Positions 6,636 through 17,708 of a DNA stretch of 64,000 nucleotides are shown one piece after another; the stretch's first letter is position 1, and each line of letters starts with the position of its first letter. The notes beneath the pieces are model-generated. The model ran no database searches. It was given only the letters and a program-made list of their open reading frames with translations, and was not told where the DNA came from. This DNA comes from Thermomicrobiales bacterium (lineage in GTDB: Bacteria; Chloroflexota; Chloroflexia; Thermomicrobiales; UBA6265): the NCBI GenBank assembly GCA_019637585.1, contig JAHBVL010000002.1, forward strand, positions 124,001-188,000, given 5' to 3'. The translations under genes and the position numbers were made by a program.

Positions 6636-6751
6636 GGGCGACGCGTGTTCTGAAATGAGAGGAGGCGCCTATATCGCTCGGTGAAGATCCAAACGACTGC
6701 GGACTCGCGCGCTGATGCGCATCGTGAGTAGAAGCGACAGGAGAATTGGCA

Positions 6752-8359
6752 ATGCGTCAGGGGACAAATCAAGTAACGAGTGATGCGGCGGTCGTGGCGT
6801 TGTCCACGGGGAAGATTTCACGGCGCCAGCTGCTGACCATGACAGCCGCCGGCGTGACCGCTGCGACCCTGCCTGGGTTGAGCGCGTCGGCGCTTGCACT
6901 GCAGGAGGCTGGACAGCGCGGAGGATCGTTGCACGGCGCGGTTGCGCTGCCCGCGACGAGCATGGACCCCTACACCGCACGAGCAGCATCCGGAGACTTC
7001 ATCGTCTGGCGAGCGCTCTACAACAACCTCCTCGAGCTGGGCGAAACGGGTGATCCCATCCCCGAGCTCGCGACCGAATGGACAATCAGCGAGGATGGCC
7101 TGACCTATACCTTTTCGCTGCAGCCGGGCGTCACCTTCCACGATGGAACGGTTCTGGATGCGGCGGCGATCCAGGCCACGCTCGATCGCTACCGGGCGGA
7201 GGGATCGACATTCAGCGGCGCGGAGAAGCTTCGCGTCATCTCCGAGATCGATTCATCTGATCCGGGCACACTGGTTATCACCCTCTCGGCGGTCAACGCA
7301 CCCTTCCTGGCGACATTGGCCACCTGCCCAATCGTCTCTCCCACCGCTGTTGAGGAGATGGGCGAGGACCTGACGCTGCATGGCGTCGGCTCCGGTCCGT
7401 TCAAGTTCGAGTCCTGGGAGCCGAACGCGACTGCGGTCTTTTCTCGCAACGAGAACTACTGGGAACTGGCCGCGGATGGCGAGCCCTATCCGCTGCTCGA
7501 TGAGTTCGTGCTGGATGGCGTTCCCGACGACTCGGTACGCCTGCTCAACCTCCGAAGTGGACAGTTCCAGATCATCGACCGGATCAATCCTCGCGATCTC
7601 GCGTCCGTTTCGGGAGACCCCGACATTCAAACGGTGGAAACCCCGCATGCCACGCCGCATATCGTGGCCATGAATCCCAATCGGGCGCCGTTCGACAACC
7701 TGCTTCTCCGTCAGGCTGTTTCTCATGCCCTGGACCGGCAGGCGATCATCGACAACCTGAGCTTCGGAACCGGCTACACCACGACGTTGCCCTTCCCCAA
7801 GGATGCCTGGTTCTTTGTCGACGATCCGGCTCCTGTCTACGATGCTGACCGGGCCAAAGAACTCCTGGCCGAGGCTGGATTCTCCGACGGGATCGACGTC
7901 AAGCTGACCCACATCAATCGAACCGTCGATACGCAGCTTGCGCAGATTGTCAAAGCCCAGCTGGAAGCCGTTGGATTCCGCGTGGAGATCGAATCGCTGG
8001 AGCGCACCACCTGGGTCGACCTGTGGAAAGCCGGAGAGGGCGAGCTTGGTTTGCTGCAGGGATCGGCGCAACCAACCGATCCCGATGTGGAAGCTGGCAT
8101 TTTCCTGGCTGGCAGTTTCATCAATTGGACCGAGTACAACAACCCTGACGTTCAGGACTTGCTCGTGGCGGCCAATGCGGTGACCGGTCGCGAAGAGCGA
8201 CTCTCCATCTGGAAAGAGATTGCCGGACACGTAGTCGAGGACGCGGTCTACATCTACATCGGCAACACGCCTACGGTTGCCGGCATTCGCTCGAACGTCC
8301 ACGACGTTCAGTTTGTGAGCGGTCTGATCTGGGAGCTGACGCACGCCTCCATGAGCTAA
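6752..8359 (+). CDS. Tat-exported Opp/Dpp-type substrate-binding protein (SBP family 5)
   Basis: Extracytoplasmic solute-binding protein of the peptide/nickel importer family, 535 residues, normal for the family. The N-terminus carries a twin-arginine signal (ISRRQLLTMTAAG) ending near SALALQEAG. The mature protein shows family 5 hallmarks: ELATEWTISEDGLTYTFSLQ, VTFHDG, and RQAVSHALDRQAI. ATG 6752 has AGGAGA 7 nt upstream; a TTG at 6746 is less likely. It is last in the set, after both permeases. No ATPase gene follows; a hairpin at 8417-8441 ends the unit. Confidence 0.9.
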   Translation: MRQGTNQVTSDAAVVALSTGKISRRQLLTMTAAGVTAATLPGLSASALALQEAGQRGGSLHGAVALPATSMDPYTARAASGDFIVWRALYNNLLELGETGDPIPELATEWTISEDGLTYTFSLQPGVTFHDGTVLDAAAIQATLDRYRAEGSTFSGAEKLRVISEIDSSDPGTLVITLSAVNAPFLATLATCPIVSPTAVEEMGEDLTLHGVGSGPFKFESWEPNATAVFSRNENYWELAADGEPYPLLDEFVLDGVPDDSVRLLNLRSGQFQIIDRINPRDLASVSGDPDIQTVETPHATPHIVAMNPNRAPFDNLLLRQAVSHALDRQAIIDNLSFGTGYTTTLPFPKDAWFFVDDPAPVYDADRAKELLAEAGFSDGIDVKLTHINRTVDTQLAQIVKAQLEAVGFRVEIESLERTTWVDLWKAGEGELGLLQGSAQPTDPDVEAGIFLAGSFINWTEYNNPDVQDLLVAANAVTGREERLSIWKEIAGHVVEDAVYIYIGNTPTVAGIRSNVHDVQFVSGLIWELTHASMS

Positions 8360-8416
8360 CCAAGCGGCTCACGGGTCTCGGAACACTGCGAAGCTCGAGG
8401 AGAAGCGCAAAGTGCG

Positions 8417-8441
8417 GGCCCGGCGTCATTGACGCCGGGCC
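8417..8441. terminator. Perfect 12-bp-arm hairpin between convergent genes
   Basis: GGCCCGGCGTCA and its exact complement are separated by one T. It lies between the binding-protein gene (+) and the DUF4239-like gene (-). No T-run follows, so it may be a terminator or an mRNA 3'-end protector. Confidence 0.55.
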
Positions 8442-8463
8442 ACCTCCACGCCTCCGCTTCGCC

Positions 8464-9243
8464 TTACTCTGCGTTCATCGATGCCTGTAAGTCGGTCAAT
8501 GGCCTTTGTGACACCGGCAAGTACCCACGCTGCGGGGCATCCAGAGCCGCGATCATCATCACCACGAGCGAAAAAGACAAGGCGAGCACGAGCATCATCC
8601 ACGTACGCCGCGATGCGGCGTTCGCCGTTTGATAGCCAACCGCAAACATACCGAACAGCACAAGAAGATAGAGCGCCATCCACAACCCGGAGGGCATCCT
8701 GGCCTGGCCGGCAACGGCGACTCGTTCAGCCAGAACGTTCATCATCCCGTTGATCGACTCGACATACATCGCGGCGATGTCGGAGTTGTCGCCATTGCGG
8801 ACATTTTCGACCGCCATGTCCCAGAGTTGTTGCTGCGTGACCAGCAAGTCGGCAATCGAACTTTCCAGATTGTCGAAGTTGCTCGGATCGCCCGCTGCAA
8901 GGACCTGGTCGATGTAGTCTAGATACAGTGATTTGGCCTCGGCGCGCTGGGATTCGGGCAGGAAATCCGACCGGAGATACGCGGTGCGAATTGACGCCGC
9001 CTGTTCGCGAACCAACACTTTTCGGGCGTCGTATCGATCGGAAACCGTGCCAAAGGTGAATGCAAGCATGAATGCCAACAACGCCAGAACCGATCCGACG
9101 ATGGCGCCGACCGGTGCTTCCTTCTCGTCTTCGCTGCGCCGTCTGGTCGTCCAACCGACCCGGTAGCCGAGTTCGATCGCTCCCATAACCAGTAGCGCGG
9201 TCAAGATGAAGAGCAGCCATAGAGGGATGTCCTGCACGGTCAC
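8464..9243 (-). CDS. DUF4239-like (bestrophin-like) membrane protein
   Basis: A 259-residue membrane protein with two N-terminal helices (about 8-26 and 47-66), a soluble helical segment of about 110 residues, and two C-terminal helices (about 183-202 and 214-235). The segment LALLAFMLAFTFGTVSDRYDARKVLV and the Arg-rich stretch after helix 1 resemble DUF4239 proteins, which are distantly bestrophin-like. GTG start at 9243 with AAGGAG 8 nt upstream. Function is unknown. It is a single gene, convergent with the upstream transporter set. Confidence 0.7.
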   Translation of the reverse strand: MTVQDIPLWLLFILTALLVMGAIELGYRVGWTTRRRSEDEKEAPVGAIVGSVLALLAFMLAFTFGTVSDRYDARKVLVREQAASIRTAYLRSDFLPESQRAEAKSLYLDYIDQVLAAGDPSNFDNLESSIADLLVTQQQLWDMAVENVRNGDNSDIAAMYVESINGMMNVLAERVAVAGQARMPSGLWMALYLLVLFGMFAVGYQTANAASRRTWMMLVLALSFSLVVMMIAALDAPQRGYLPVSQRPLTDLQASMNAE

Positions 9244-9508
9244 GCACTTGACTCCTTAGGGACGTGCATTGGGGGGAAACTCCGGCACCGATCGTGTCAA
9301 CGAGTCCGCAGAATCACTTGGCCCGGGCTCCCTGTGCCGCATGATTCATTAGCGACACGGGATTTTATCCGGATTGGCTGTTGTCGGCCAATGAGACTCG
9401 TGGGACCGCGTTCTGTTTCTGGCCGCTGGCCGCTTCTCAGACATTGGAAAGAACGACGGAGCAACTGGCTGGTCCGCAATCCAAACTGAAACGGCATGCT
9501 CGCTGTTT
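9244..9508. other. Intergenic stretch between the DUF4239-like gene and the second permease set
   Basis: 265 nt with no supportable gene. It must hold the promoter of the DUF4239-like gene and the 3' end of the permease operon. No clear terminator or repeat was seen. Confidence 0.5.
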
Positions 9509-10414
9509 TCAGCGGCTCTCACTAACAGACCGCACGTCCAGTGCATCGCGCAGACCGTCGCCAAAGAGATTGAGGGCGAGCACGGTGGTGACGATAGCCA
9601 GCCCGGGAAAGACACTGATCCACCATGCCTGCCGAATGAAGTCTCGGCCCTCGTTGAGAGCCAGACCCCAGGTTGGGGTCGATGGGTTGACTCCCAGACC
9701 CAGGTAAGTGAGTGTCGATTCAGTCAGGATGCCGAGTCCGACGGCGAAAGTGAACTGCACGATGATCGGCGCCACCATGTTCGGCAGAAGATGCCTGGAG
9801 AGGATGCGCCGGTCACGGGCGCCGATCGCCCGGGCGGCCAGGGAGAAATCCTGTTCCCGTAGCGAGAGGACCTCGGCCCGGATGATTCTGGCGAAGTCGT
9901 CGATGTATGCCACCGCGATCGCCACGACAACATTGCGAAAGCCTGCGCCAAAGAATGCCACCATCCCGACCGCGAGAACGATGACGGGAAAGGACCAAAG
10001 CAGCTCGACAAATCGCATGATGACCGAATCGATCTTTCCTCCATAGAAACCGGCAATCATGCCGGCCAATCCGCCAATGGCCAGTGCCAGCAGTGCCGCC
10101 AGCAGGCCCACGCTGAACGAAACGCGGGTGCCGATCAGCACGCGGCTGAACAAGTCCCGGCCGTAGGAGTCGGTGCCCATTGGGTGGCGCCAGGATGGCT
10201 CCATGAGCAACCCAAAATCGTTGTCGTCGGGGCCATATGGCGAAATCCAGGGACCAATAATCGCCAGAATGGCGAACGCCCCGAGCAGAACGAGTCCAAT
10301 GAGCACCTTGCGTTCGCTCCGGAGTCTGGTCCAGAAGCGGCTGCGCGATCGGGGCGGTTGCAGGTCCCCCGCCGCCAGCGTCTGGATATCAGCGGCGATC
10401 GATGCGTCACGCAT
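9509..10414 (-). CDS. Opp/Dpp-type ABC permease, OppC-like (second set)
   Basis: Permease of 301 residues with the OppC layout: a cytoplasmic N-terminus, a first helix (VLIGLVLLGAFAILAIIG), the motif HPMGTDSYGRDLFSRVLIGT, and the coupling loop REQDFSLAARAIGARDRR. Its start overlaps the end of the upstream permease by 8 nt. It is last in a minus-strand binding protein, OppB, OppC order and is distinct in sequence from the 5721-6635 permease, so the sets are not a recent duplication. No ATPase is encoded nearby. Confidence 0.9.
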   Translation of the reverse strand: MRDASIAADIQTLAAGDLQPPRSRSRFWTRLRSERKVLIGLVLLGAFAILAIIGPWISPYGPDDNDFGLLMEPSWRHPMGTDSYGRDLFSRVLIGTRVSFSVGLLAALLALAIGGLAGMIAGFYGGKIDSVIMRFVELLWSFPVIVLAVGMVAFFGAGFRNVVVAIAVAYIDDFARIIRAEVLSLREQDFSLAARAIGARDRRILSRHLLPNMVAPIIVQFTFAVGLGILTESTLTYLGLGVNPSTPTWGLALNEGRDFIRQAWWISVFPGLAIVTTVLALNLFGDGLRDALDVRSVSESR

Positions 10415-11354
10415 AGCGGATTCTTGGATCGATTGCCGTGTAGAGGATGTCGACGGCCAGATTGGCCAGCACGAAAATCACGGCAATGAGCAGCACGATC
10501 CCCTGAACCATGGGGTAATCTCGATCGAAAATGGCGCCGATCAGAATTCGGCCAATCCCCCGGATCGAGAAGACCATTTCAACCGCGACGGTACCGCTGA
10601 GCAGGAGCGCCAGCTGAATGCCCATCACTGTCACGACAGGGATAAGGGCATTGCGCATGGCATGCCGGGCAATGACGCCCGGTTCGGCAACCCCTTTGGC
10701 TCGAGCGGTTCGAATGTAGTCGCTGCTCATTGTCTCCAGAAGGCCCGCACGAACGAATCGCATGAGAATGGCCGCGTAGGCGGTGCCGATTGCGATTCCC
10801 GGCAGAATCAGGCGTTCGATCCAGGCGCGGAACCCGTCGTCACGCAGCTCGGCGTAGCCCAGAGCCGGAAACCAGCCGAGGTTCACGGAAAAGACAATGA
10901 TCAGGAGAATGCCGAGCCAGAATCCCGGCATGCTCACGCCGATGAAGGCAATCAGGCTGGCGAGATAGTCGATCCATGTGTTGCGCTTGAGCGCGGCCAG
11001 GATACCCGTGGGCAATGCAATCCCGACCCCGATGATGAACGCCACCAGCGAGAGACTGAGCGTTTTCGGCAACCCGGTGCGAATGGCATCGACGACCGTT
11101 TCGTTCGTAGCAATCGAGCTTCCCATATCGCCGCGCAGCAGATCGCCCATCCACTTGACATACTGGCTGCCGATCGATTCGTCGAGCCCCAGTTTCTGGC
11201 GCATGGCGTCGGCGGCCTCGGGTGTGTATTCGGGCCCCAGCATTTGCACGACGGGATCGCCCGGAACGAGCCGGATCGCGAAAAAGACAAGCGTGGCCAC
11301 GCCCCAGATGAGGAACGCCGAGTGAATCAACCGCCGAATGAGGTATCGGGCCAC
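10407..11354 (-). CDS. Opp/Dpp-type ABC permease, OppB-like (second set)
   Basis: Permease of 315 residues beginning MARYLIRRLIHSAFLIWGV, with the OppB periplasmic segment after helix 1 (PGDPVVQMLGPEYTPEAAD), six predicted helices and the cytoplasmic loop SSDYIRTARAKGVAEPG. It lies between the binding-protein gene and the OppC partner, with an 8-nt overlap to the latter. It probably forms the heteromeric channel of a dipeptide, oligopeptide or nickel-type importer. Confidence 0.9.
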   Translation of the reverse strand: MARYLIRRLIHSAFLIWGVATLVFFAIRLVPGDPVVQMLGPEYTPEAADAMRQKLGLDESIGSQYVKWMGDLLRGDMGSSIATNETVVDAIRTGLPKTLSLSLVAFIIGVGIALPTGILAALKRNTWIDYLASLIAFIGVSMPGFWLGILLIIVFSVNLGWFPALGYAELRDDGFRAWIERLILPGIAIGTAYAAILMRFVRAGLLETMSSDYIRTARAKGVAEPGVIARHAMRNALIPVVTVMGIQLALLLSGTVAVEMVFSIRGIGRILIGAIFDRDYPMVQGIVLLIAVIFVLANLAVDILYTAIDPRIRYA

Positions 11355-11387
11355 CGTCGAGGCTTCCTGCTAGCGCCGCCGTTGCAC

Positions 11388-11421
11388 GTGGGAGTCTCTG
11401 GAGTTGCCGAGAGACCCCCAC
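11388..11421 (-). terminator. Intra-operon hairpin between binding protein and permease genes
   Basis: 12-nt arms with one mismatch (GTGGGaGTCTCT and AGAGACcCCCAC) around a 10-nt loop, downstream of the binding-protein stop and before the permease start. Such hairpins often keep binding-protein mRNA more abundant than permease mRNA; that role is inferred. Confidence 0.45.
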
Positions 11422-11439
11422 CGCACAGGCGATTATCGA

Positions 11440-13065
11440 CTACCGGTCGAGCCAGACTTTTTCGTAGTAGCGCTGCTCCGGAATCCCCACGACTCCCTGA
11501 ACGTCCGCGTGATGCGCGAACAGATCGAAGACATGGTAGACGAACGCGGCCGCAACGTCAGTTTGCAGCACGACCTGGAGCTCCTGGAAGAGCCTGGCTC
11601 GCTCGGCCTGATCTGACGTGGCCCGCGTTGCTTCGAGGAGTGCGTCGGCATCGGCGCTGTTGTAGCCATAGGTATTCCAGGGACCAGTGGAGTGGAAGAT
11701 GTTCCAGTGGCCGTCGTCAGGATCGGCATCGACCACGCTGCCATGCAGGAAGAGATCGAAGTCGCCCGACTGCCACCGCTCGTTGAACGTCGCCGCCTGC
11801 TGGAAATCGACCTGAGGATCCAGACCGATTTCGGTCAACGCCGTGCGCAGTACCTCAGTCGGCCGCTGGCCGATTTCTTCGGACGAGATGATCACGGGCT
11901 GCACGCCAACGATTCCCGCTTCTTCGGCGAGGGCTTTCGCTTCGTCGAGGTTGTAGCCCTGCGGGTTCTCCACAGTCGCCGGATCGACATACGCCCAACC
12001 GAAGGCCGGAGCGATGGCGCCGATACCGGGCGTGGCCAGACCGAAGAAGGCGGTGTCGACGAACGCCTGCCGGTCGATCGCTTTCGATACCGCCATGCGG
12101 GCCACCGGATTGTCCCAGGGAGGCCGGGCGTAGTTCATCACCACGCCTCGCCACATCGTGCTTGGTTGCTGGAGGACAACGAGGTCGGAATTGGAATTCA
12201 GCTGTTCGAAAGAGGTAGCGGGCACGGGGTCGATGGCGTCGAGATCGCCGGCCTCCAGACCGCTCACGGCGCTGGAGGGTTCCGGGACGAGCCGTACCTC
12301 GATCGTGTCGAGATAAGGCCGTCCGCCGTACCAGCCATCGAACGCGACCATGTCGAATCCCTGGCCCACGTCGTAGGTCTCCGGGACGATCATGAACGGT
12401 CCAGAGCCGACTGGCGTCATGCCGAACTGCTCGTCGCCCATTTCCTCGATTGCCCGGGCGGAAACGGGCGTCAGCGCCCGGCCAGGTCCTCGCGTGCAGG
12501 CCACAGCCAGGAAGGGAGCGAATGGGTCGCTGAGCGTGAGGGTGACAGTGCGCTCATCCGGCGTCTGGAAATCGGTGACCGACGCCAGCTTGTTGGCATG
12601 CGGGGAAGCGAAATCTGGATTCGTCGTGCGGTCGAAGGTGTACTGGAAATCGGCGGACGTGATCGCGTCGCCATTGTGGAAGGTGATGCCTTCCCGCAGG
12701 GTGAAGCTATAGCTGAGTCCATCCTCGGAAACCGTCCAATCCTCCGCAAGATCGGGAATGATGCCGAGGTCGGTGTCGAATTGCACCAGACTGCTATGCA
12801 GACTGGGGAGAATCGAACCGGCGACGACGCCCTGCGCCAGCAGTCCGGGATCGAGGGTGACGATCTGGCTGTTCAGAAAACCGAGCCGGAGCGTTCCGCC
12901 GGTCACTGGCTCCTGCAGCGCCGAAGCGGCGCTTGCTTTCGGCGATGCCTGGAGACTCGCGGCAAACGCCGCAGCTCCGGTGCCCATCGCGAGCTTCATC
13001 AATGTCCGGCGAGACACATAGGGACCGCTCAATACACTCCAGTCGATCGGATGACGGGACTCCAT
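11440..13065 (-). CDS. Tat-exported Opp/Dpp-type substrate-binding protein (second set)
   Basis: Family 5 solute-binding protein of 541 residues. A twin-arginine signal (VSRRTLMKLAMGTGAAAFA) is followed by the mature domain with DLAEDWTVSEDGLSYSFTLREG, ITFHNGDAI and VARMAVSKAIDRQAF. ATG 13065 is favoured over a much longer upstream frame because AAGGAGGAG sits 4 nt before it and the signal peptide starts there. It is the first gene of the second importer set. The substrate is unknown. Confidence 0.9.
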   Translation of the reverse strand: MESRHPIDWSVLSGPYVSRRTLMKLAMGTGAAAFAASLQASPKASAASALQEPVTGGTLRLGFLNSQIVTLDPGLLAQGVVAGSILPSLHSSLVQFDTDLGIIPDLAEDWTVSEDGLSYSFTLREGITFHNGDAITSADFQYTFDRTTNPDFASPHANKLASVTDFQTPDERTVTLTLSDPFAPFLAVACTRGPGRALTPVSARAIEEMGDEQFGMTPVGSGPFMIVPETYDVGQGFDMVAFDGWYGGRPYLDTIEVRLVPEPSSAVSGLEAGDLDAIDPVPATSFEQLNSNSDLVVLQQPSTMWRGVVMNYARPPWDNPVARMAVSKAIDRQAFVDTAFFGLATPGIGAIAPAFGWAYVDPATVENPQGYNLDEAKALAEEAGIVGVQPVIISSEEIGQRPTEVLRTALTEIGLDPQVDFQQAATFNERWQSGDFDLFLHGSVVDADPDDGHWNIFHSTGPWNTYGYNSADADALLEATRATSDQAERARLFQELQVVLQTDVAAAFVYHVFDLFAHHADVQGVVGIPEQRYYEKVWLDR

Positions 13066-13271: not shown

Positions 13272-14666
13272 TCAAAGAGGAACCAACTGCTCCTCGGTGG
13301 GCTCTGCTCAGCAGTACCATGGTTCGCTGAGCTGTGGGACGGCGGGATAACCGAATCCTTCGCGCAATTTGGGTCGCGATCCCGACGTGCCAGTCAATCT
13401 GGTGGCTGTGCGCCAGATGCGCTCGCAGGTTTCGCGACGTGGCGCTTCTCGTTGCTGGTCTTCCTGGATGATCGTCAGAACGCTCTGGTGCAACTCGTCC
13501 ATGCGAGGATCGGGATGGTTCCATGGATAGACGAGCGCGAAGGGATCAAAGGGTTCGATGACTGCCTGGGTTTCCGGCAGTTCGAGCAAGCGGGAGCCCG
13601 ACGGAATCAGCAACCTGATGCCGTACTGAATGGGGGAGACGTTCTCGATCAGATCGAGGTTGGCGAGCGTTTCCAGCAGCTCGACATATCCCTCGGCGGT
13701 CGTCCAGGGCGTGAAGGTGACGAAGGTGGGATTGAGCGGCAGACCAAGCTGCCGGGTCGACTGAACGACCAGCTCGAATTCCTCGCGGGTGTGGCGTTTG
13801 TCGAGAATCTCCAGGACTCGCTCGTCGATCGATTCGACGGCCGAGGTGATCATGGCGCAGCCGGTGTCGCGCAGTACCGGCAACAGCTCTTGCTGGCGCA
13901 CCAGGTGTTCGACTTTGATGGTCACGTCGTAGGAGAGCGTGGGCCAGCGGTCGTGCAGCGCCTCGACGATGCGACGGGCGTGTCCGGGGCCATTGAAGAA
14001 ATCCGGATCGCCGAAGGTGATGTGTTCCGCTCCGGCCGCCACTTGCTGCTCGATATCGGCGAGCACGACATCGGCGCTGATGGCGAAGAAGCGTCCGCCG
14101 TAGACCGGCACCACCGGGCAATGGCGGCAGAGGTGCTTGCAGCCGCGCGTCGTTTCGGTATAGCCGGTGATGCGCCGTCTGCCGTCTGCTGTGGTGATGT
14201 ACGCGTACTGGGGGAGTCCCGGCAATCCGTGACGATCGGGTACCCGGAACTGGAGCCGGTCCAGGGAAAGCGGGGCATCACGTTGCGGAGCCGTGGGATC
14301 GTCGCGCAGGCGGTTGAGCATGGCGACCAGACCCGGCTCGAATTCGCCGCCCAGCACCGTGCCGGCGCCGATCGAACGGAAGAGGGGTTCATTGACCGCG
14401 GCATAGAGACCGAAAAAGCAGAGATGCGCATCGGGATTCACCTCGCGCACCCGTTGGGCCATGCGCAGCGCAATGCGCGTTGCGGTATGCATCGGCACGG
14501 AGAAGCAGACGACATCCGCCCATTTGATGGTGCCGGCATCGAGTTTCTGGATGGCCAGATCGAGGCAGCGGACGTTGGCTCCCGCACCGGTCAGCCAGGC
14601 AGCGGCTGAACCAACGGCGAACGACTGCCGGCCAAGCTCGTAGGTTGAAACGATCGCTACGTTCAT
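13272..14666 (-). CDS. Radical SAM selenoprotein with C-terminal Cys-Sec-Ala-Glu-Pro tail
   Basis: A 464-residue radical SAM enzyme if the in-frame TGA at 13308-13310 (codon 453) is read as selenocysteine. An N-terminal cobalamin-binding-like region (1-120) precedes the [4Fe-4S] motif C176-KHL-C180-RH-C183 in ETTRGCKHLCRHCP, and a TIM-barrel core with FGDPDFFNG and SAVESIDERVLEILDKRHT. The codons around the TGA are TGC TGA GCA GAG CCC, giving C-U-A-E-P, followed by TEEQLVPL and a TGA stop at 13272. A SECIS-like hairpin follows the recoded codon. I recall a family named for a CUAEP/CCAEP tail; this matches it exactly. ATG 14666 gives the family-like start MNVAIVSTYELGRQSF but has a weak ribosome site. 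It is divergent from a DsrE-like gene. The substrate is unknown. Confidence 0.88.
13277..13295 (-). promoter_or_regulatory. Bacterial SECIS-like hairpin
   Basis: Twelve nt after the TGA, GAGGAGC pairs with GGTTCCTC-type bases (7 pairs including one G-U) around the loop AGTTG. The apical loop starts 19 nt after the TGA and shows GU, as needed for SelB recognition in known bacterial SECIS elements. Confidence 0.7.
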
Positions 14667-14796: not shown

Positions 14797-15174
14797 GTGA
14801 AAGTCGCCTATGTGTTCACCACCTCCGGACATACAGCCAGCTACAAGCTGGGCAAAATGATTCTGCCTCAGCTGGAGAGCGGCACCCATGGTGTCGAGGT
14901 CGTGGGAATGATGTTTTTCGACGACAACACCTTCATTCTGCGCAAGGGCGATCCGATGGGCGAGCGACTGGCCAAAGTGGCCAAGGAGCAGGGCATTCTG
15001 CTGATGATGTGCGACCAATGTGCGCTCGAGCGCGGTCTGGCGGAAGGGGAGTTCGGCACGGTGCCGAGTCAGTGCGTGGCGACCGGCACGGTCGAGGGCG
15101 TGGCCGTGGGCTGCTTCCCCGATCTCTATGGTGCGCTCGCCGGCAACCCGCCGGATCACGTCATTTCGCTGTAG
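14797..15174 (+). CDS. DsrE-like small protein, probable partner of the selenoprotein (SaoD-like)
   Basis: A 125-residue DsrE/DsrF-fold-like protein (KVAYVFTTSGHTASYKLGKM) with four cysteines: a C72-DQ-C75 pair in LLMMCDQCALERGL, C93 and C106. DsrE relatives carry sulfur or other chalcogens on cysteine. GTG start at 14797 with AAGGGAAG at good spacing. It is divergent from the radical SAM selenoprotein with 130 nt between starts, so shared control is likely. I recall a DsrE-related family called SaoD linked to CUAEP-tail selenoproteins and believe this is a member, but could not check. A pairing in selenium or sulfur transfer is inference. Confidence 0.75.
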   Translation: MKVAYVFTTSGHTASYKLGKMILPQLESGTHGVEVVGMMFFDDNTFILRKGDPMGERLAKVAKEQGILLMMCDQCALERGLAEGEFGTVPSQCVATGTVEGVAVGCFPDLYGALAGNPPDHVISL

Positions 15175-15317: not shown

Positions 15318-16532
15318 CTATTCAGCGACCCAGGAGAATTCGCCGGATTGGATCGTGCCGATCGCGGCGAGGGATAGTCCCGATTCCTGCAATGTGGCGT
15401 GCTCGGTGGCGCTGACGATCACCTGGGCTCCCAGGTCGCCGATCGAGGCGCTGAGCTGCGCGCGGTGGTTCCGGTCGAGCTCGGAGTAGACGTCGTCGAG
15501 GAGTACGATCGGTTGATCGCCTCCCTCGGCGAACATCAGGTCGGCCTCGGCCAGTTTCAGCGCAACCGCTGCGAGGCGTTGCTGTCCCCGCGAGCCGAAG
15601 GTGCCGATGTCGATGCCCTCGACCTGGACGGTCAGATCGTCGCGGTGGGGGCCGATCAGGGTGACGCTCCGCTTGAATTCAAGACCCCGAACGTGCTTCA
15701 GCTGCTCGGCCATGGCGAAGGCCGCCCCGGATTCTCCATCGCGGGCCGATCGGATGAACTGGGAGATCCGGGTCTCGTCGGGCGTCGGGCTGCCAAGCGA
15801 CGGTTGATAGCTGGTGGTCATCGAGTCGATGCCGGTGAACGCCGCAAAACGGTCTCGCGCGAAACGGTCCAGGTCGTCGATTGCCTTCACTCGCCGGTGG
15901 ATGATGCGCGCGCCGTGAGCAATCAATTCGTTGTCCCAGTAGTCGAGCTCGGTACGGACGGCTGGGTCCTGCCAGGACATTCCCTCCCGAACCAGACGCT
16001 TGATCAGGCTGTTTCGCTGCTCGACGATTCGCCCGTAGCGGGAGAGTGCAGTCAGATAGCCGTGGTCGACCTGGGAGAGCATCACATCGAGGAATCGCCG
16101 CCGCTGTCCGGGTGACCCGGCGATCAGATCAATATCCTGAGGTTCGAAGAGAACGCACTTGAGCGCGCCAACGACCCGGCCGGCCGTGGTTCGTTTTCCG
16201 TCCAGCGACACAACTTTACGAACCCTCGTGCTGTGGAGTGGTTCGGCCTGGAAGCCGATCTCGATCGTTCTCGTGCCGCGTATCGAAGAGAATGTTCCCT
16301 CCACGCGAGCGTATGGGGCCACCTGCAAATCCTCGCCACTCTTCCAGTTGAGGAGTTCGCGCTCGACACCGGCTCGCGTGGAGCGGGTTGTGGCCAGCAG
16401 GATGATGGCTTCGAAAATGGTGGATTTGCCGGCGGCATTGGCTCCGACCAGACCGAATCCTTCGGGAGGAATGGCAAGGTCGAGCGACCGGACCGAACGA
16501 AACTCGGACAGGTTCAGGTGGGTCAGATACAT
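15318..16532 (-). CDS. recF: RecF, DNA replication and repair ATPase
   Basis: SMC-like ATPase that loads RecA at gapped DNA with RecO and RecR; 404 residues, slightly longer than usual. It begins with the RecF signature (MYLTHLNLSEFRSVRSLDLAI), Walker A GANAAGKST near residues 33-41, the RecF motif LIAGSPGQRRRFLDVMLSQ, the ABC-type signature FGSRGQQRLAAVALKLAE, and Walker B QPIVLLDDVYSELD. It lies 33 nt downstream of dnaN, the usual dnaN-recF order, although dnaA and gyrB are not alongside. The ribosome site is weak, so coupling to dnaN is possible. Confidence 0.96.
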   Translation of the reverse strand: MYLTHLNLSEFRSVRSLDLAIPPEGFGLVGANAAGKSTIFEAIILLATTRSTRAGVERELLNWKSGEDLQVAPYARVEGTFSSIRGTRTIEIGFQAEPLHSTRVRKVVSLDGKRTTAGRVVGALKCVLFEPQDIDLIAGSPGQRRRFLDVMLSQVDHGYLTALSRYGRIVEQRNSLIKRLVREGMSWQDPAVRTELDYWDNELIAHGARIIHRRVKAIDDLDRFARDRFAAFTGIDSMTTSYQPSLGSPTPDETRISQFIRSARDGESGAAFAMAEQLKHVRGLEFKRSVTLIGPHRDDLTVQVEGIDIGTFGSRGQQRLAAVALKLAEADLMFAEGGDQPIVLLDDVYSELDRNHRAQLSASIGDLGAQVIVSATEHATLQESGLSLAAIGTIQSGEFSWVAE

Positions 16533-16565
16533 GTGCTGGCTGCTCGCGGTGGGCGCCCCGGTGGC

Positions 16566-17708
16566 CTAGGTCGTGCCGATGACCATGGGCATGATCACGT
16601 GGGTGTAGGCGTCGTCGCCGGTCGGATGGATGACCCCGGCCTGATTGGCGCCATTCAATCCCAACGTGGCCTGGCCACCTTTGATCACGCCGAGTACGTC
16701 GTTCAGATAGCGGGCGTTGAACGCGACCTGGATCTCCGGCCCTTCGATCGCCGCGTCGACGAAACTCTGGCTGTTGCCTCGTTCGGCGGCATTGGCCGAA
16801 ACCTCCACCAGCCCAGGAGTGAGCTCGTCTTCTCCGGGTTTGATGGCGAGGCGAATAGCGTCATTGTTGTCCCTGGCGAAGTAGCTCGACCGCTTCACGG
16901 CCGTCAGCAACGCATCCCGTCCAAGATCAACTTTCGTGGAGTACTCGCGAGGCACGATTTGGCGGTAGTCGGGGAACGACCCCTCGATCAACCGGGAGAG
17001 GAACTCGATATCGCCAAACCGGGCGATCATCTGACCCTGATTCGGCGTGACGTAGAGAATGGCCGGCTCGCTGGCCTCGGCCAGAAGGCGGCCCAGTTCC
17101 CGCATTGCCTTGGCTGGAACGATGACATCGAGCGACGGAGTAAAGAGCTCGTTGAGTTTGCCCTGGCGCACCGCCAGCCGGAACCCGTCGGCAGCGGCCA
17201 TGGTGATCGCGTCGCCGTCGAGTCTGAGCAGCACACCGGCGAGCACCGGACGGCTTTCGTCGGTGGCCGCGGCGAACTCGACCATCGTGATCATCTCGCG
17301 CAAATCGGCGGAGTCGATGGTGGTCGTTTGCGCATCGTCACTGACAGTCGGAATGACCGGGAAATCGTCGGGTTCGATGCCGTTGATCTCGGCGTGATCG
17401 CGACCAGATTGCACATCCAGCCGGTACTTGCCGCGCTCGCTGGAGAGCGTGACGTTGTCATTGGGAAGTGTGGAGACGAAATCAGCCAAAAGCCGGGCAT
17501 CGACCGCGACTTTGCCCTCTTCCTCGACCGACGCTCCAACCCAGGTGGTGATCGCGATGTTGAAGTCGGAAGCGGCGATTCGCAGCCGCCCTTCGTCGGT
17601 GGAAATGAGCACGTTGCTGAGAGCCGGGAGGGAGGTTCGAGTCGCGACCGCCCTGGATACCTGAGCCAATCCGTGCTGCAGATTTTCCTGTAGGCAGACG
17701 ACCTTCAC
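16566..17708 (-). CDS. dnaN: DNA polymerase III beta sliding clamp
   Basis: Ring-forming processivity clamp, 380 residues, three clamp domains of about 125 residues each. It begins MKVVCLQENLQHGLAQVSRAV, contains TSLPALSNVLISTDEGRLRIAASDFN in domain 1 and ATDESRPVLAGVLLRLDGD in domain 2, and ends HVIMPMVIGTT, close to the family's MPM(R/V) C-terminus that lines the partner-binding pocket. GTG start at 17708 with GAGGGG 7 nt upstream. It leads recF. No DnaA boxes are evident in the upstream gap, so this need not be the replication origin. Confidence 0.97.
   Translation of the reverse strand: MKVVCLQENLQHGLAQVSRAVATRTSLPALSNVLISTDEGRLRIAASDFNIAITTWVGASVEEEGKVAVDARLLADFVSTLPNDNVTLSSERGKYRLDVQSGRDHAEINGIEPDDFPVIPTVSDDAQTTTIDSADLREMITMVEFAAATDESRPVLAGVLLRLDGDAITMAAADGFRLAVRQGKLNELFTPSLDVIVPAKAMRELGRLLAEASEPAILYVTPNQGQMIARFGDIEFLSRLIEGSFPDYRQIVPREYSTKVDLGRDALLTAVKRSSYFARDNNDAIRLAIKPGEDELTPGLVEVSANAAERGNSQSFVDAAIEGPEIQVAFNARYLNDVLGVIKGGQATLGLNGANQAGVIHPTGDDAYTHVIMPMVIGTT

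Follow-up and report, generated by a model that had tools for sequence, protein, structure and literature searches.

Among described enzymes, the one that comes nearest to the protein considered here is ArsL, the arsinothricin synthase (NCBIfam NF040542), which transfers the aminocarboxypropyl group of S-adenosylmethionine (SAM) to As(III) (PMC8552651), with later work on the enzyme cited in PMC12159101. A better fitting family exists as a database entry, NF040546 'CUAEP/CCAEP-tail radical SAM (seleno)protein', whose members end in Cys-(Sec/Cys)-Ala-Glu-Pro, Sec being selenocysteine; no mention of 'CUAEP' or 'CCAEP' was found in the limited literature collection searched, and no NF040546 entry was found in the 119-entry selenoprotein table of a 2026 inventory (PMC13188914). 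Here we analysed a stretch of 64,000 nucleotides from a Thermomicrobiales bacterium of the Chloroflexota (contig JAHBVL010000002.1, positions 124,001 to 188,000), in the following called the window, and within it a minus-strand gene whose frame runs through a TGA codon into such a tail. We conclude with high confidence that this gene encodes a selenoprotein in which the UGA at 13310-13308 is read as Sec, the case being about as strong as sequence data can make it. The features on which this assignment rests are as follows.

13272 to 14666, minus strand: predicted gene for a radical SAM selenoprotein with CUAEP tail (464 residues, Sec being residue 453), the span including the true stop

14118 to 14141, minus strand: radical SAM motif CKHLCRHC (Cys176, Cys180, Cys183), from the sequence and a match to Pfam PF04055 (48 bits), its cysteines being invariant in the alignment

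13308 to 13310, minus strand: in-frame UGA, putative Sec codon for residue 453 after Cys452, from the frame, the homologue tails and an alignment of 59 sequences

13277 to 13295, minus strand: hairpin of the selenocysteine insertion sequence (SECIS) type, GAGGAGC-AGUUG-GUUCCUC, 7 bp with a G in the loop, from TGA-specific pairing, covariation and a slide control

13272 to 13274, minus strand: second TGA, the true stop, from reading of the frame

From the ATG at 14666, the minus-strand frame comprises 452 sense codons, starting MNVAIVSTYELG and ending ...SEPWYC, followed by the TGA at 13310-13308, behind which AEPTEEQLVPL and then the TGA at 13274-13272 stand in frame, exactly where the initial annotation had placed this read-through. 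With the first TGA read as Sec, the protein matches NF040546 over nearly its whole length (605.4 bits, E 6.7e-182, against a curated cut-off of 500 bits) and presents the C-terminal signature of the family as C-TGA-AEP, while nothing was found that excludes membership. The tail family pointed to in the initial annotation is real, and the gene is a further member of this family, whose name already stands in NCBIfam and at least one public record. The CX3CX2C motif and the PF04055 match additionally place the protein in the radical SAM superfamily.

The tails of the homologues, at least 551 of which, from many phyla, were among the matches listed in one scan, bear directly on the reading of the TGA. 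Considering the 110 readable tails (109 relatives plus the window gene), the terminal pair is Cys-TGA in 74, Cys-Cys in 32, TGA-Cys in three and TGA-TGA in one, meaning that TGA occurs somewhere in the pair in 78 tails and Cys codons (TGC or TGT) take its place in 32, and the residues behind the pair are AEP nearly always and SEP once. Across many phyla, 73 relatives have TGA at the same codon as the window gene and four more at the neighbouring codon of the pair, and all 59 aligned sequences have Cys or Sec in the pair. Because the same codon is TGA in 73 relatives with conserved Ala/Ser-Glu-Pro and TGC or TGT in 32, the TGA is not a product of chance; UGA standing where homologues have Cys, with conserved sequence behind it, is what characterizes a selenoprotein gene.

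That the first TGA is a real stop, with the enzyme ending at Cys452 and the AEP stretch being an untranslated relic, could be argued from the Thermomicrobium roseum homologue, which is annotated to end at the TGA, and from the Cys-Cys relatives, which show that Sec is replaceable. However, relatives from different phyla conserve AEP and a Gln after the TGA, the Cys-containing relatives translate straight through, the SECIS hairpin is specific to TGA genes and all sel genes are present (see below), which makes this explanation very unlikely. Homologues carry C-U-AEP or C-C-AEP rather than stopping ahead of the TGA, and the T. roseum record is itself a probable truncated selenoprotein annotation, since the public coding sequence on plasmid NC_011961 (L144 5935-7371) stops at the TGA even though the frame reads on (...C*AEPLEDPSGP); the concern that ordinary annotation loses the tail is thus borne out by a public example. 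As a further observation on the tails, Cys-Cys-type homologues of one genus (L038, L039, L040, L042, L043, L047) carry long Cys-containing extensions after CCAEP with more CC pairs, e.g., ...SSDCCGVGH.

Directly downstream of the UGA lies the SECIS hairpin with its loop G, starting 15 nt after the U of the UGA. Of 74 distinct TGA genes, 72 form at least five of six stem pairs in either of two registers, compared with 9 of 32 Cys genes. Pairing in the TGA genes reaches 84% in register and falls to 38-54% when the register is slid, and Cys genes show 55% in register. Moreover, 43 of 77 TGA genes have stems of at least 6 bp, where 500 synonymous shuffles give 5.4 on average and 12 at most, whereas the Cys genes are at chance (two observed, 2.2 expected under shuffling). 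Among homologues, stem pairs are exchanged between G-C, C-G and A-U, and TGA genes with Gln at the position providing the loop G invariably use the codon CAG, while nine Cys genes have CAA. No Rfam family matched the hairpin at 13277-13295 in an Rfam search.

The genome also holds the complete machinery for Sec: selC, which encodes a tRNA-Sec with anticodon UCA (65.5 bits), lies outside the window, as do selB (331 bits), selD (352 bits) and selA (483 bits), the last approximately 3.7 kb beyond its left edge, in agreement with the initial annotation, which had seen none of the four genes in the window. That annotation had named a genome without selC or selB, or homologues stopping just ahead of the TGA with no AEP extension, as findings that would speak against Sec, and neither is the case. 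No formate dehydrogenase that could account for the sel genes scored above cut-off in this genome. The frame would equally stay open if an altered genetic code or a suppressor tRNA made TGA a codon for a standard amino acid; yet TGA terminates selD, the ATP-grasp gene discussed below and the window gene itself, and since TGA is an ordinary stop in other genes of the genome, no global recoding is at work. As this explanation also leaves the hairpin and selC unaccounted for, we regard its probability as close to negligible.

Some observations on the distribution of selC weigh against Sec. Of the 30 named genomes with the TGA form, four yielded no selC, all four being draft metagenome-assembled genomes, and selC is present in 12 of 20 named genomes with the CC form and in most CC-form Chloroflexota; because CC forms persist in genomes with selC, Sec is not indispensable. 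With a threshold of 60 bits, selC accompanies the TGA form in 26 of 30 named genomes versus 12 of 20 for the CC form (p 0.04). As a marker parting the U from the C forms, the presence of selC was considered and found weak, since most CC-form Chloroflexota have it.

With the UGA assigned to Sec, the ribosome would decode 13310-13308 with the help of SelB, tRNA-Sec and the 13277-13295 hairpin, and translation would end at the second UGA. The predicted product would consist of an N-terminal Rossmann fold resembling a cobalamin domain, the CX3CX2C site for a [4Fe-4S] cluster and a C-terminal arm ending in Cys-Sec-Ala-Glu-Pro plus eight residues. The tail with its conserved Cys-Sec pair may be the catalytic end.

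Concerning the fold, a structure model based on the alignment of 59 sequences (mean predicted local distance difference test score, pLDDT, 93.4) predicts a cobalamin-type radical SAM fold; by alignment its closest matches are AprD4 (6FD2, Z 27.2), MgmA (9CCB, Z 25.9) and OxsB (5UL4, Z 25.4). These three have the overall fold in common with the window protein (VIA-align Z 25-27 over 358-420 residues) at approximately 15% identity. To our knowledge, none of them has a Cys-Sec tail. The B12-binding domain PF02310 is matched weakly by 58 of 59 members, the window protein reaching 18.9 bits against a cut-off of 32.1. In sequence, ArsL is the sister family, homologous to the window protein over approximately 400 residues and its second-best NCBIfam match with 285.7 bits, with all other families at 43 bits or less. 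The ArsL proteins of Priestia, Pseudomonas amygdali and Alicyclobacillus end in KRCCLKC, and their CC aligns with the CU pair, whereas the CUAEP protein differs in an arm before the pair that is about 50 residues longer, in the AEP tail after the pair and in Sec.

The commonest neighbour of CUAEP genes encodes an ATP-grasp protein (PF13535 plus PF18603) whose C-terminal domain is that of L-amino-acid ligases. Of 80 named loci, 35 have this gene no more than 8 kb away, and in most of these 35, from several phyla, it stands directly beside the CUAEP gene, be it upstream, downstream or convergent. In a sample of 400 genomes of the phylum plus the present one (CUAEP holders at 426 bits or more, ATP-grasp at E 1e-60 or better), the ATP-grasp gene was present in 95 of 98 CUAEP genomes compared with 31 of the remaining 303 (Fisher p 3e-60, shared ancestry being ignored), and the two genes lie within 5 kb of each other in 49 genomes of the phylum. 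An ortholog scoring 371 bits and sharing 49% identity with the probe is present in the genome studied here, and its closest solved structure is the L-amino-acid ligase BL00235 (3VOT). The partner belongs to the same sequence family as the L-amino-acid ligases BL00235 and BacD but passes no curated NCBIfam cut-off. On plasmids of Priestia and Alicyclobacillus, the arsL clusters likewise contain ATP-grasp genes (L145 2741-3964, L147 436-1668), a hint at arsinothricin-containing peptides.

Kinship and neighbourhood together suggest, tentatively, an ArsL-like chemistry with downstream ligation, in which a SAM-derived group would be passed to a soft acceptor atom held or reduced by the Cys-Sec pair, and the ATP-grasp of the L-amino-acid-ligase type would then join the resulting amino acid to another. 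The acceptor, the mode of SAM cleavage and the product are what we infer here; the homology, the pair and the co-occurrence are observed. Several points speak against this chemistry: the protein scores 285.7 bits where ArsL membership calls for 450 and ends in CUAEPTEEQLVPL instead of RCCLKC, no arsenic gene set (arsM, arsC, arsB, arsR and arsN of arsL clusters served as probes) was found in the 80 named CUAEP loci, the ATP-grasp proteins of arsL clusters and CUAEP loci are only 23-29% identical, the ligase gene of the present genome is located on another contig (54602-55816), 31 genomes have the ATP-grasp gene without CUAEP, and the co-occurrence counts take no account of shared ancestry.

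A rival explanation, which we consider quite possible though short of an even chance, is a selenoprotein in which Cys-Sec serves as a redox relay only, reducing either the enzyme or a radical intermediate of the substrate in a cobalamin-type reaction (methylation, dehydration) unrelated to ArsL. It would agree with AprD4, MgmA and OxsB, dehydratase and cobalamin-dependent enzymes, being the best structural matches, with the weak B12-binding match throughout the family, with vicinal Cys/Sec pairs being common redox motifs and with a DsrE-like neighbour (see below), but it sits poorly with ArsL being by far the nearest relative in sequence (286 versus at most 43 bits) and having its CC end in the corresponding place. 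Alternatively, the enzyme could be a Sec form of ArsL that makes an organoarsenical from As(III), for which the sequence kinship, the aligned CC/CU pair and the ATP-grasp genes in the Priestia and Alicyclobacillus arsL clusters could be cited. Yet the family has members in hundreds of bacteria from many phyla, and an arsR-arsC-arsB-arsN set is missing from the surroundings of CUAEP in the named loci, where matches were isolated (one arsC in L118, two weak methyltransferases and two arsR-like genes), whereas clusters of arsM, arsQ, arsN and arsR were present round the ArsL controls; we consider this alternative improbable. An arsenic pathway for CUAEP was rejected on the same absence.

Turning to evolution, a tree of 109 family members and three ArsL proteins implies at least 14 exchanges between Sec and Cys. 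The window gene groups with a multi-phylum clade (Methylomirabilota, Acidobacteriota, Actinomycetota and some Chloroflexota) apart from the genes of its own order, and its protein is 41-47% identical to the retrieved homologues of its own order and phylum compared with 58-59% to other lineages. Since it groups with other phyla and not with its own order, the gene was probably acquired horizontally, the tree giving the clade but not an exact place within it. Furthermore, three Chloroflexota genomes have Sec-first tails (UC-AEP; L103, L109, L135) and one Anaerolineaceae genome has a double-Sec tail (UU-AEP; L074), and the four genes form one clade (Shimodaira-Hasegawa-like approximate likelihood ratio test, SH-aLRT, 97). 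The simplest reading, based on these four draft genomes only, is a shift of Sec from position two of the pair to position one via a double-Sec step, with one hairpin being kept. Exact-pattern searches for U-first tails (UC or UU) in 400 sampled Chloroflexota genomes retrieved none.

The immediate neighbour of the window gene is divergent to it:

14797 to 15174, plus strand: gene for a DsrE-like protein of the SaoD/DsrE family NF040913 (203 bits, cut-off 152), likely start GTG at 14797

While passing NF040913, one of the models for SaoD/DsrE-related proteins (NF040913, NF040732), this neighbour stays below the narrower SaoD model (117 versus 169 bits). DsrE-like genes lie beside or near CUAEP in three actinobacteria, and within the phylum a SaoD/DsrE-type gene was found in 36 of 98 CUAEP genomes compared with 11 of 303 others, though not next to CUAEP in the other genomes where both positions are listed. 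SaoD/DsrE was rejected as an obligate partner, being enriched yet absent from most CUAEP genomes. Other recurrent neighbours of CUAEP are an NfuA-like Fe-S scaffold, YggX, an aconitase-like protein and DUF169. Genes for the NfuA-like scaffold and YggX stand directly upstream of CUAEP in L070, L100, L131 and others, and these proteins perhaps load or repair its oxygen-sensitive cluster. Recognized by eye, genes of an apparent oligopeptide-type ATP-binding cassette (ABC) transporter occupy 6746-13065 on one flank of the CUAEP-DsrE pair and recF- and dnaN-like open reading frames (ORFs) occupy 15318-17708 on the opposite flank, which probably puts the locus close to the replication origin.

Overall, the sister kinship with ArsL including the CC-CU alignment, the co-occurrence with ATP-grasp and the UC/UU clade are new here, without a claim to priority for the findings on genomic context, and the selenoprotein assignment extends a database family that is apparently undiscussed in print within the literature searched. 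The ties to ArsL and to amino-acid ligases provide a testable idea of the CUAEP product. Taken as a whole, CUAEP and ATP-grasp might represent a widespread, undescribed pathway, with a Sec-form, ArsL-type aminocarboxypropyl transfer to a soft element, a peptide built by the ligase and, in one Chloroflexota clade, Sec moved from second to first place via UU, a combined proposal that we hold to be rather doubtful; judging by the neighbours, the element would not be arsenic but possibly selenium, sulfur or another metalloid. If true, Sec would be at work in the building of carbon-heteroatom bonds by a radical SAM enzyme, and the gene may belong to an undescribed small-molecule pathway.
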